A stretch of 64,000 bases of DNA, from assembly GCF_003386195.1 (NCBI RefSeq), contig NZ_QRDX01000009.1, positions 62,001-126,000 on the forward strand. Direction: 5' to 3'. A program made the position numbers and the translations under genes. Under the pieces are notes generated by a model. That model made no database searches and was not told the DNA's origin. It saw nothing but the letters and a program-made list of their open reading frames with translations. Numbering within the stretch: the stretch's first letter is position 1; each line of letters opens with the position of its first letter. Origin of the DNA: Seonamhaeicola aphaedonensis (GTDB taxonomy: Bacteria > Bacteroidota > Bacteroidia > Flavobacteriales > Flavobacteriaceae). Shown piece after piece: positions 3,444-64,000 of the stretch.

Positions 3444-4352
3444 TTGGAATCCATTCTTACAATTAACAACCTTACCAAAAAATTTGGCAATTTAACAGCA
3501 GTAAAAGACCTCTCTTTCTCCATAAAGAAAGGAAATGTTTATGGTATTTTAGGACCTAATGGTAGTGGAAAATCCACGACGCTTGGTGTTGTTTTAAATG
3601 TGGTCAACAAAACATCAGGAGATTTTCAATGGTTTGACGGTAAAATGTCTACCCATGAGGCGCTTAAAAAAGTGGGCGCTATTATTGAGCGTCCTAATTT
3701 TTATCCCTATATGTCTGGTTATCAAAATCTAAAATTAGTCTGTAAAATTAAGGGGGTTGATTACAGTAAAATTGAAGAAAAACTAAAAATTGTGGGGCTT
3801 TTAGAAAGAAAACATAGCAAATTCAGAACCTTTTCCTTGGGTATGAAACAAAGACTTGCTATTGCCTCTGCCCTATTAAACGATCCAGAGATTTTAATCC
3901 TTGATGAGCCTACCAACGGATTAGACCCACAAGGAATTCACCAAATAAGAGAAATAATAAAGCAGATTGCTGCTAAAGGAACTACTATTTTATTGGCGTC
4001 TCATTTACTAGATGAAGTTGAAAAAGTCTGTACACATGTGGTTGTTTTGAGAAAAGGAAAAAAACTATATTCTGGTAGGGTTGATGAGATGATATCTAGT
4101 CACGGATTTTTTGAGCTTAAATGCAACAAGCAAGAGGCGTTGGTTGAGCTATTAAAAAAACACACTTCCTTTAGTAAAATAAAAGTTGAAAACGATCTGA
4201 TTGTAGCGTTTTTAAATGAGCCTATGCGCTCTGATGATTTTAATAAATACCTTTTTGAAAAAGGAATCATACTTACCCAATTAGTACAACGCAAAGAAAG
4301 TTTAGAAGAACAATTCTTGCAATTAACAGACAACCAAGCCAACCAAATTTAG
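3444..4352 (+). CDS. ABC transporter ATP-binding protein
   Basis: This is the cytosolic ATPase of a two-gene ABC-2 type exporter, with the permease directly downstream (4-base gap). Starting at TTG 3444 gives 302 aa beginning MESILTINNLTKKFG, the usual start of this family. The longer reading from 3423 would start inside the -7 box. Motifs in order are Walker A GPNGSGKST, a signature loop in the variant form SLGMKQRLA, Walker B ILILDEPTNGLDPQG, and the switch His in LLASHLLDEV. The last ~80 residues form the accessory C-terminal domain common in multidrug/bacitracin/NatA-type ATPases. The substrate cannot be told from sequence. Confidence 0.88.
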   Translation: MESILTINNLTKKFGNLTAVKDLSFSIKKGNVYGILGPNGSGKSTTLGVVLNVVNKTSGDFQWFDGKMSTHEALKKVGAIIERPNFYPYMSGYQNLKLVCKIKGVDYSKIEEKLKIVGLLERKHSKFRTFSLGMKQRLAIASALLNDPEILILDEPTNGLDPQGIHQIREIIKQIAAKGTTILLASHLLDEVEKVCTHVVVLRKGKKLYSGRVDEMISSHGFFELKCNKQEALVELLKKHTSFSKIKVENDLIVAFLNEPMRSDDFNKYLFEKGIILTQLVQRKESLEEQFLQLTDNQANQI

Positions 4353-4356
4353 TACC

Positions 4357-5181
4357 ATGTTAAGACTTTTAAATTTAGAATTACAAAAACTACTGCTAAA
4401 TAGAACAAGCATGACACTCATTTTTGTATCATTTGTTTTACCATTTTTTGTCATATTGTTATCCTCACTAAGAATAAACGTTTTTGGCTTTTTTACACTA
4501 GAATTGGGTGAATTAGGAATCTTTAACTTTCCTATTATATGGCATCTGACAACATTTTTTGCATCGCAATTTAAGTTCTTTTTTGCTATTGTGGTTGTGA
4601 GTATGATAGGTAATGAATATAGTAATAAAACCATAAAACAAAACTTAATTGATGGTTTAAGCAAAAAGGAGTTTATCCTATCAAAATTTTACACAATTAT
4701 ATTCTTTTCGTTGATTTCAACAGTATTAATCTTTGTTATTTCCTTTTGTATTGGTTTTTATTATTCAAGTTATAATGAGTTTTCTATTATTATTCAAGAG
4801 ACAGAGTTTTTATTGGCATACTTCATAAAACTAATTGGATTTTTTAGTTTGTGTTTATTCTTTGGTATGTTGGTTAAAAGATCTGCTTTTGCACTAGCAT
4901 TCTTGTTTATTTTATACATACTTGAATGGATATTTTTTGGCTTAATGGTATGGAAACTTGATATGAATACCGCTGAAAAGATCCAGAATTTTTTCCCTTT
5001 AAAATCTATGTATAAGCTCATAGACCAACCATTTCAAAGAATTGCAATGACAAAATTTCCTGAAAAAGCGAATTTATCCTACGATTATGGAGCACATGGA
5101 TACGAAATGCTTATAGTTTTAGCTTGGACAGCCCTATTCATCTTTTTATCGTATAGATTATTAAAAAAGCGTGATTTATAA
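4357..5181 (+). CDS. ABC-2 type transporter permease
   Basis: This 274-aa protein has about six hydrophobic segments. It begins with a short N-terminal cytosolic stretch (MLRLLNLELQKLLLNRTS), the usual coupling region of ABC-2 permeases such as those for gliding-associated or bacitracin-type exporters. A GNEYSNKTIKQNLIDGLSK segment follows the second membrane span, as is typical of this family. It is 4 bases behind the ATPase gene and almost certainly forms the membrane half of the same exporter. The protein ends in the charged KKRDL. Nothing identifies the substrate. Confidence 0.82.
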   Translation: MLRLLNLELQKLLLNRTSMTLIFVSFVLPFFVILLSSLRINVFGFFTLELGELGIFNFPIIWHLTTFFASQFKFFFAIVVVSMIGNEYSNKTIKQNLIDGLSKKEFILSKFYTIIFFSLISTVLIFVISFCIGFYYSSYNEFSIIIQETEFLLAYFIKLIGFFSLCLFFGMLVKRSAFALAFLFILYILEWIFFGLMVWKLDMNTAEKIQNFFPLKSMYKLIDQPFQRIAMTKFPEKANLSYDYGAHGYEMLIVLAWTALFIFLSYRLLKKRDL

Positions 5182-62322: not shown

Positions 62323-62688
62323 ATGAAACACATTTTATTAGTTTTTCTTGGTGGAGGCTTTGGTAGTGTTTTGCGCTATGTTATTGGAAAATACTTAAAT
62401 AGCCCATCAAACGGAATACCTTACGGTACTTTTGCTGCGAATATTTTAGGAAGTTTGCTTATTGGTATTATTTTAGGGTTGGCAGCCAAAAATAACTCCT
62501 TAACACAAAGTCAAACCTTATTGCTAGCCACTGGTTTTTGTGGTGGTTTTACCACTTTCTCTACCTTTGCTTACGAAAATCATGTGTTTTTAAAAGCTGG
62601 CGATTTTACGAGTTTTGCTGTTTACACTATGGCCAGTTTTATAATTGGCTTTTTAGCGGTGTTTTTAGGTATGTTTTTGGTAAAATAA
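62323..62688 (+). CDS. crcB: Fluoride efflux channel CrcB/Fluc
   Basis: This 121-aa protein has four membrane helices. Diagnostic motifs are GGGFGSVLRYVIGKYL, PYGTFAANILGSLLIGI with the pore Asn, and GFCGGFTTFSTFAYE with the conserved Phe box. It works as a dual-topology dimer that lets fluoride leave the cell. I see no fluoride riboswitch in the 127 bases upstream, which hold a palindromic repeat instead. Confidence 0.95.
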   Translation: MKHILLVFLGGGFGSVLRYVIGKYLNSPSNGIPYGTFAANILGSLLIGIILGLAAKNNSLTQSQTLLLATGFCGGFTTFSTFAYENHVFLKAGDFTSFAVYTMASFIIGFLAVFLGMFLVK

Positions 62689-62864
62689 AATCTTGATTCT
62701 GCAAAAATTTGAACTATACTTTTAAATCAAAGTTTTCTCCCACAATTATGTTGAATTTATTTTAACATTAAAAACAGATTTTACTTACTTTTAATGGGAT
62801 AAATATAATTCTGATAAAATAATTGTGTTTATTCATATGTTAGCAGAAATTAAAACCATTCTTT

Positions 62865-63164
62865 TTGGAAAAAGTAATTTTCATAAATGAACCAGAAAAA
62901 AGTATAGAAGAAATTCAAAGTCTAATTAAAATCGTTTATAATGGCTTTATGGCTTTAGCAATGGACTATGGCTATTATGTTAAAAATACATTTGGTTCTG
63001 CCAAAGATGGAAAACATGAAATATTTGAACTAAGAGATAGTATAAACTATAGAATTAGAAGTGCAAATCTTCATTTTTATCTTTTGATTGATAGAAAATT
63101 TTTTATCGAACACAGATTTGCTAAAATGCTAAAAAACCCACTGCCTTTAACGGGTATCATATAG
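62865..63164 (+). CDS. N-terminal part of a frame-disrupted HEPN-like gene
   Basis: This open frame of 99 aa has no ATG. It starts from TTG 62865, or from ATG 62837 in another frame with a second frame change. It encodes EKVIFINEPEKSIEEIQSL, VYNGFMALAMDYGYYV and a segment LIDRKFFIEHRFAKMLK before it loses sense at NPLPLTGII-stop. In the -1 frame the sequence from 63131 on reads KKPTAFNGYHIGNPHFEMATDE and runs without a stop into the next frame (63182-63799). The switch point is A AAA AAC at 63131-63137. The two frames together make a ~311-aa protein. On its own this frame is not a complete protein. Confidence 0.6.
   Translation: MEKVIFINEPEKSIEEIQSLIKIVYNGFMALAMDYGYYVKNTFGSAKDGKHEIFELRDSINYRIRSANLHFYLLIDRKFFIEHRFAKMLKNPLPLTGII
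63131..63137 (+). other. A AAA AAC heptamer at the frame switch
   Basis: In the upstream frame the codons are CTA AAA AAC, which is an X XXY YYZ slippery heptamer. A -1 shift here joins the two open frames. The same A-run could equally be a site of a one-base loss. Confidence 0.5.
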
Positions 63165-63181
63165 GTAATCCTCACTTTGAA

Positions 63182-63799
63182 ATGGCCACAGATGAAGTTA
63201 TGGCAATTTATGATAGTATCATTTTTCATTTATCTTCTTCTTTTGATTACTTAGCAATGTTAACTCAATTTATTTTTGGACAAAATCCTCAAAAAAACCT
63301 TCAGTGGATAACGCTTGTAAAGCATTGTTACAATAAAGAAAGTGAATATGGAAAAAGAAAGTTTGTAGATAATATTAAAAGAGTAGATTCTGAATTTGTA
63401 AGTAAGTTTAATGATTACAGGTCTGAGTTAATTCATAGAAAAAAATCAACATCTTTTGCTAATGTGTCTTGGGAATTAAAATCAGGACATGTAACAACTC
63501 AATTTGAATGCTCTGACAAAATTAAATCCAATCTTAAAAAAATTATAAACAAAGATTTAAGGTACTGTATCACATATGCTTCATTCATGGTAATAAAAGA
63601 AACGTTGTTAAAGATATCAGATGTGTTACACGGAATGCACGATGAGTTCAGAGAAAACTATAATCAACTTCCAGTTATGAATAAAGGTGAGTTGCAAATT
63701 TTTTCTATGTCTGGTCGAAATAGCACTCCTGAAAGTCCTTCTGTTAGCTACTGGAAAAAATTTATGGAATACAAAAAAACTTCTGCTAACACCGGCTAA
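63182..63799 (+). CDS. HEPN-like domain, C-terminal part of the disrupted gene
   Basis: The ATG-started 205-aa frame continues, in the same frame, upstream sequence without a start (YHIGNPHFE lies before the ATG), so the ATG at 63182 is probably internal. The protein is helical, with AIYDSIIFHLSSSFDYLAML and, after a variable loop, FNDYRSELIHRKK. RSELIH is the R-x4-H motif that forms the RNase site of HEPN domains. HEPN proteins are common in toxin-antitoxin, abortive-infection and RNA-processing systems. No antitoxin gene is adjacent in the window. Confidence 0.55.
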   Translation: MATDEVMAIYDSIIFHLSSSFDYLAMLTQFIFGQNPQKNLQWITLVKHCYNKESEYGKRKFVDNIKRVDSEFVSKFNDYRSELIHRKKSTSFANVSWELKSGHVTTQFECSDKIKSNLKKIINKDLRYCITYASFMVIKETLLKISDVLHGMHDEFRENYNQLPVMNKGELQIFSMSGRNSTPESPSVSYWKKFMEYKKTSANTG

Positions 63800-63832
63800 A
63801 AAGCATTGCAGATTAAAGTAACTGTGTTCCAT

Positions 63833-63908
63833 CTCAGAGTTAAATCAAATTATTACTCAAGAATTTATTATCTTTTAATTCTCAAAGCAGAACTACGTTA
63901 ACTCTGAG
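63833..63908. repeat. 11-bp inverted repeat
   Basis: CTCAGAGTTAA (63833-63843) and TTAACTCTGAG (63898-63908) are perfect reverse complements flanking 54 AT-rich bases, between the HEPN-like gene and the next start. It could be a weak terminator, an operator or a mobile-repeat remnant. Confidence 0.45.
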
Positions 63909-63927: not shown

Positions 63928-64000
63928 ATGAAAAATGTAAGTTATCTATTCTTACTTTTAGCCTTGATCGCCGAATTATTTGGAACAGTAGGTGGATTTG
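63928..64000 (+). CDS. Start of a TauE/SafE-like (TSUP) permease, 3' end outside window
   Basis: ATG 63928 opens KNVSYLFLLLALIAELFGTV followed by GGF and runs off the window after 24 residues. The hydrophobic helix with AELFGTVGGF resembles the first helix of sulfite exporter TauE/SafE-type permeases. The fragment is too short for a firm call. Confidence 0.45.
   Translation, partial: MKNVSYLFLLLALIAELFGTVGGF

Follow-up and report, generated by a model that had tools for sequence, protein, structure and literature searches.

A HEPN-like gene lies split between two reading frames near the end of the 64,000-nucleotide stretch of Seonamhaeicola aphaedonensis DNA that was analysed (the window), and the frames overlap at a run of A. 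The locus raises the question whether this break is a regulated frameshift, an error of sequencing or a lesion, and also where such a gene would have come from. We hold it highly probable that the locus is a broken cassette lying outside its array, derived from a chromosomal integron-type system of the family Flavobacteriaceae that would work without the IntI domain. The features on which this reading draws are collected in Table 1.

Table 1. Features of the split gene and its surroundings (window positions, all on the forward strand)
Feature	Position	Strand	Remarks
crcB-like gene to the left of the insertion	62323..62688	+	Pfam CRCB 2.1e-29
Putative cassette start box (R' type) GTTAGCA	62839..62845	+	complements the end box exactly
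5' half of the HEPN-like gene	62865..63164	+	frame 0, TTG start, TAG end
Frame overlap holding the putative lesion	63125..63161	+	heptamer at 63131-63137; relatives lack the heptamer near here
3' half of the HEPN-like gene	63125..63799	+	-1 frame
R-x4-H motif RSELIH	63419..63436	+	R and H invariant in 15/15 relatives
Putative cassette end box (R'' type) TGCTAAC	63784..63790	+	exact complement of GTTAGCA
Left half of the cassette's putative attC, rest lost	63784..63810	+	resembles the left half of the L038 and L039 sites
Shortened remnant of the 300-nt repeat, read as an ORF-less cassette	63811..63908	+	85-87% identity to full copies, in two pieces
Start of TauE-like gene, which continues beyond the window end	63928..64000	+	Pfam TauE 1.5e-31 on L017:1929-2654

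Frames, heptamer and relatives of the split gene

The ORF analysis of the window showed frame 0 to be open from 62844 to 63161 with a stop at 63162, and the -1 frame to be open from 63125 to 63796 with a stop at 63797. The frames overlap by 37 nt, and A AAA AAC lies inside this overlap in the X XXY YYZ phase. When the two halves were joined, the resulting protein aligned over its full length with five relatives, with a one-column gap at the join. The frame analysis and the alignment confirmed what the initial annotation had claimed, namely that two open frames are joined by a -1 step and that coding sense continues across it; its placement of the step exactly at A AAA AAC stood in part, as the heptamer is in phase and compatible with a -1 join, but the position of the join was resolved to the overlap only.

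In all 15 distinct relatives the gene was found uninterrupted in a single frame. These comprised 13 from GTDB contigs together with L011 and L014 from a family scan; the scan had given five relatives, and the other three were taken to be L042, L047 and L049 and were counted once. Comparison with L038 and L039 revealed past constraint on both halves of the window gene (pN 0.15-0.16 against pS 0.63-0.81), and the C-terminal half gave no match in the six other genomes of the genus. The split gene by itself is an ordinary broken copy of a gene that is whole in its relatives, and a recent lesion is the simplest reading of the frame break: a small indel in or near the A-run would have shifted the frame. 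The lean toward decay expressed in the initial annotation was borne out by these relatives, but two of the reasons given for it were not. Close to the position of the window's own TTG (62865) some relatives likewise begin with GTG or TTG, and the absence of an ATG therefore does not point to decay. The competing third-frame ATG at 62837 exists, but it arises at the cassette border, where AT runs into the box GTTAGCA. The integron cassette context had been missed.

The main rival to a lesion is a sequencing or assembly error at the A-run in a gene that is intact. The genome is a draft of 41 contigs and the break falls at a homopolymer, and the strong past constraint seen in both halves would fit such an error; the adjoining attC, however, has decayed as well, as expected of an abandoned cassette, and an error is in our judgement unlikely.

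The other proposal was a programmed -1 shift at A AAA AAC, by which the cell would keep a toxic nuclease scarce. In its favour are the right phase of the heptamer and the coding sense that runs on across it, and a chance density as in the window would give only about 0.012 A6C copies in 31 positions. Runs of A are also hot spots for indels, and the coincidence is therefore weak evidence for programming. The comparison of homologues that had been suggested as a check was run and gave the outcome named in advance as speaking against a programmed shift: the gene is in one frame in every relative, and no heptamer lay near the join in any of the 13 scanned relatives, AAAAAAC being wholly absent from the gene in eight of them and placed well away from the join in the remaining five. 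In the four closest relatives (from one Lutibacter, one Flavobacteriaceae and two Bacteroidetes MAGs; identity 61-74%) the gene is free of AAAAAAC. Folding of the downstream RNA at 63138-63217 against shuffled copies showed no stimulator; this RNA was less structured than its shuffles (z +1.12), 171 of 200 of which folded as well or better. Furthermore, AAAAAAC occurs in the window at chance frequency, with 50 copies observed against 51.4 +/- 7.4 expected. With bacterial programmed -1 frameshift genes of the dnaX type the window gene shares the A AAA AAC in the right phase, but it differs in that the heptamer is not conserved in relatives and no stimulator was detected. Given the single-frame relatives, the unconserved heptamer, the missing structure and the chance frequency of A6C, programmed frameshifting was rejected, its probability being close to nil. 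Under the lesion a regulated frameshift would not be needed, and slippage would yield at most traces of the full-length protein.

The initial annotation had also called the gene HEPN-like on the strength of RSELIH, which is indeed encoded in the C-terminal part. The R and the H of the motif are invariant among the relatives. The Lutibacter relative was modelled (mean pLDDT 83, pTM 0.86) as a mostly helical protein of about 310 residues in which the motif closes helix 168-191 and precedes a beta hairpin. In the available text of PMC3710099 the HEPN motif is described as lying where a helix ends, which agrees with the modelled position. On the other side, the joined protein matched no family in Pfam or PADLOC at E<=1; Pfam searches with the 15 relatives returned scattered weak matches to unrelated families (best E 0.014) and no HEPN profile; and a fold search with the model yielded nothing at E<=0.001, its best-ranked entries being unrelated helical proteins and not solved HEPN structures. 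Compared with the HEPN superfamily, including PDB 3jrt, the family of the window protein is alike in the invariant R-x4-H at a helix end and in its mostly helical model, but differs in having no profile or fold match, in its length and in the hairpin after the motif. The term HEPN-like holds at the level of a sequence motif, and the product is probably an RNase of the HEPN type, predicted to be of the toxin or defence kind. A precedent for HEPN genes in integron cassettes is the 'integron cassette HEPN' of PDB 3jrt, as described in the available part of PMC3710099. A search of viral contigs, which reaches close relatives only, recovered nothing related to the joined protein.

Boundaries and surroundings of the probable cassette

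The start and end boxes that enclose the gene are exact complements of each other, and the same GTTAGCA box opens the cassette of the relative in L039. The locus would span about 62840-63908 as an integron gene cassette that is broken and outside its array, its gene encoding a mostly helical protein with the invariant R-x4-H; the crossover is expected between G 62839 and TT 62840. The attC of the window is degenerate and fused with a remnant of a repeat, whereas the relatives in L038 and L039 have full sites. A covariance-model search of the window attC returned nothing at E<=1, and a 2.3-kb search with filters off scored the whole region 63784-63903 at 13.3 bits (E 0.015). Because this attC is degenerate, support for a cassette comes from the end boxes and the relatives; the attC would have decayed along with the gene.

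The relatives were found in cassettes of their own. In L039, a relative with 74% identity lies among 11 successive sites, each 131-134 nt long, behind a tyrosine recombinase; the genes listed between the sites all point in one direction, and the 7-mer at a cassette start, compared by eye, was the exact reverse complement of the 7-mer at the cassette end in 10 of 10 consecutive pairs. In L042 (Gillisia lutea, Flavobacteriaceae) the relative occupies the first cassette position behind the recombinase and has exactly pairing ends; neighbouring ends at that locus pair exactly in four of six cases. Exact pairing was also seen for the relative's cassette in L045 (Maribacter), and pairing was less good in L038 (6 of 7 bases) and L043 (5 of 7). 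The HEPN-like gene of the Lutibacter MAG (L038:6001-7058) is a single cassette with a full attC, and no array was found in the 12.9 kb of that locus.

In the sibling species G002 and G003, crcB is followed by a DUF1684 gene, which here lies beyond the TauE-like gene. Because crcB adjoins the DUF1684 gene in these two genomes, the HEPN-like and TauE-like genes were recognised as an insertion; the cassette and the TauE-like gene would sit between crcB and the gene that follows it in two siblings. The other four siblings had no match to the DUF1684 gene within the 1.5 kb examined. The TauE-like gene is possibly a second cassette, but the site at its 3' end is very weak (6.9 bits); a homologue with 86% identity occurs elsewhere in G002.

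attC-like sites, the linked recombinase and known integrons

A covariance model, R1, was built from 18 sites of L039 and L042. The attC-like sites fold as hairpins with covariation, the hairpins being on the bottom strand. In the window's genome R1 gave 30 sites at E<=0.1, 29 of them with E<1e-5. It was run within the phylum, and its false-positive rate rests on control regions; 73 of 296 genomes across the phylum had matches, 54 of them outside the family (a count of rows). Within the family R1 matched 334 of 397 genomes at E<=1e-4, and a profile of the recombinase matched 246 of 397 at E<=1e-60, so attC-type sites are present in more genomes than a strong recombinase match. The sibling G001, for instance, has sites and no recombinase match at that threshold.

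The linkage between sites and recombinase was determined in two sets of loci. The first held 40 loci, being the top 41 rows of the recombinase profile minus the training genome G117, and the second held 20 loci from the next lower group, from G231 down with G127 skipped. One first-set locus (L055 of G137) is not independent of the model, because its recombinase and that of the training locus L039 have almost the same N-terminus. Sites were found in 28 of the 40 and 16 of the 20 loci; in 13 of the 16 remaining loci less than 500 bp of contig is left downstream, and L080, L082 and L086 have 1.8, 2.2 and 9.4 kb downstream yet no site, and may have lost the array or carry divergent sites. Around the 60 recombinase genes, 192 of 193 sites were downstream and co-oriented (129 of 129 in the first set and 63 of 64 in the second), the sole exception being one site of L120 in the second set that lies upstream in the other direction. 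On the upstream side of the first set no site was detected in 361 kb. From the recombinase gene to the first site the distance is 408-1540 bp. As a control, 20 regions about 200 kb from such genes were searched, 14 in genomes of the first set and six in other genomes of the family, and these 397,620 bp held one site in all. GTT and AAC cores were present in 127 of 129 sites, and neighbouring cassette ends paired exactly in 123 of 147 cases (84 of 100 and 39 of 47), against 6.4% in a shuffle of the first set.

The region directly after the recombinase was surveyed in 31 chosen loci: L039, L042 and, from the loci with sites, 22 of the 28 in the first set and seven of the 16 in the second. In 27 of the 31 a first-cassette start box was located behind the recombinase, and in 24 of these 27 an ATATA box was seen by eye within about 13 nt upstream of the start box, 30-172 bp after the gene; in the other three the box is 320-386 bp away and its flanks are unlike the attI-like site. 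We read ATATAAC..GTT after the recombinase as an attI-like site. An Rfam search of nine loci at gathering thresholds gave no match. By every mark computed, the system is integron-like: it would consist of a tyrosine recombinase and a short attI-like site, followed by same-direction cassettes separated by attC hairpins, and by analogy with known integrons the recombinase would cleave the folded attC on its bottom strand at G^TT and join it to attI.

Catalytic motifs of tyrosine recombinases were identified in 40 of 42 proteins, the other two being unscored by the motif pattern. The motif-to-motif spacing was 63 residues in 40 of 42, compared with about 106 in IntI4 by alignment coordinates; the recombinase lacks the IntI-specific segment. 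All 12 proteins examined fell below the TIGR02249 cut-off (265 bits). Canonical IntI above this cut-off was found in none of the 397 family genomes, a null result to be read together with 0 of 14 named control genomes, which provided no positive control. The cut-off of NF040815 (tyrosine recombinase/integron integrase) was passed by five of ten proteins. A structure model of the recombinase (mean pLDDT 77, pTM 0.53) ranked XerA and IntI4 highest. At its N-terminus the protein carries an additional domain of roughly 85-100 residues, and HARP (PF07443) was listed in four of nine N-terminal pieces, weakly, the best reaching E 7.3e-5 and 22.7 bits where the cut-off is 25. Binding of branched DNA is a property of HARP domains. 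The recombinase would act without the extra domain of IntI, and its weakly HARP-like N-terminal domain may take over part of the hairpin recognition.

According to the available text of PMC9668308, IntI has an additional domain near patch III, and IntegronFinder identifies IntI by that domain; because of this the recombinase would probably escape IntegronFinder. Since it fails the test that defines IntI, the system was filed as a variant integron and the protein was not filed as IntI. With IntI integrons (class 1 and chromosomal) the system shares a recombinase gene, an attI-like site, co-oriented cassette arrays, GTT-core attC hairpins and complementary ends. It differs from them in a recombinase that has no IntI segment, stays under TIGR02249 and bears an extra N-terminal domain, and in the place of the recombinase gene, which is upstream of the array and in the same direction. 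Among solved proteins, XerA/XerC-like recombinases (5hxy, 4a8e) rank nearest in sequence and structure, and they likewise have no IntI segment; here, in contrast, the enzyme is linked to attC-like arrays and has the N-terminal domain.

We favour with moderate confidence the view that Flavobacteriaceae, and partly other Bacteroidota, have a second kind of integron that is overlooked by IntegronFinder, with a XerA-like recombinase lacking the IntI domain and a HARP-like N-terminus that maybe recognises the attC hairpin. Cassettes such as the HEPN-like gene of the window would then occur singly elsewhere in the chromosome. It is doubtful, though a reading of some weight, that these are known integrons with a known, merely shortened IntI: Bacteroidota are named among integron-bearing phyla in the available parts of PMC8618304 and PMC9668308, and half of the proteins scored pass NF040815, but the uniform shortfall against TIGR02249 and the short motif spacing argue otherwise, and no description of such a system was found in the open-access literature as far as its text was available. 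Another XerA-type mobile repeat system that merely resembles an integron would suit the nearness of the recombinase to XerA and its missing IntI segment, but is very improbable given how closely integron logic is matched, in the cores, paired ends, bottom-strand hairpins, co-oriented genes and attI-like start.

In the available text of PMC9024848 (IntegronFinder 2.0), one complete integron is given for Bacteroidetes proper, that of Salinibacter ruber, to be set against the attC-type sites in 334 of 397 family genomes. The open-access literature, in its available parts, held only general mentions of integrons in Bacteroidota and the Salinibacter integron. Should the recombinase prove functional without the IntI domain, one could test directly which part of an integrase enables it to act on folded single strands. 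If the reading of a second kind of integron is true, a major environmental group would hold a large store of cassette genes, among which PemK-like, ParE-like and restriction-enzyme genes were seen.

The 300-nt repeat in the window's genome

The 3' flank of the window cassette recurs through the genome as a 300-nt repeat, whose start GATGGAA complements its own inner box TTCCATC. At 10 of the 18 sites examined the repeat followed directly after the G of attC, one of the ten being a partial match. When the cassette after the repeat end had a scored site, its ends still paired (5 of 5; L020, L022, L023, L024 and L025); in L021 a further copy of the repeat follows at its end. A reading of the repeat as the recombination site was rejected on comparison with L039, which showed it to lie directly after the G of attC as a cassette with no ORF; the repeat is best read as such an ORF-less cassette. 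Contig ends fall within repeat copies (G000 contigs C1, C3, C12, C13 and C15-C19), so the array has probably been fragmented by assembly.

One attC in L021 (2267-2399) has the core GAT instead of GTT and is without the repeat, and the end of the next cassette pairs with a GTT-type start. Beside the repeat, genes for a ParE-like toxin, a PemK-like toxin and a restriction enzyme of the MvaI/BcnI type were observed (L018:3383-3670 and 4254-4586, at the end of G000 C3; L023:341-1537, on C18).
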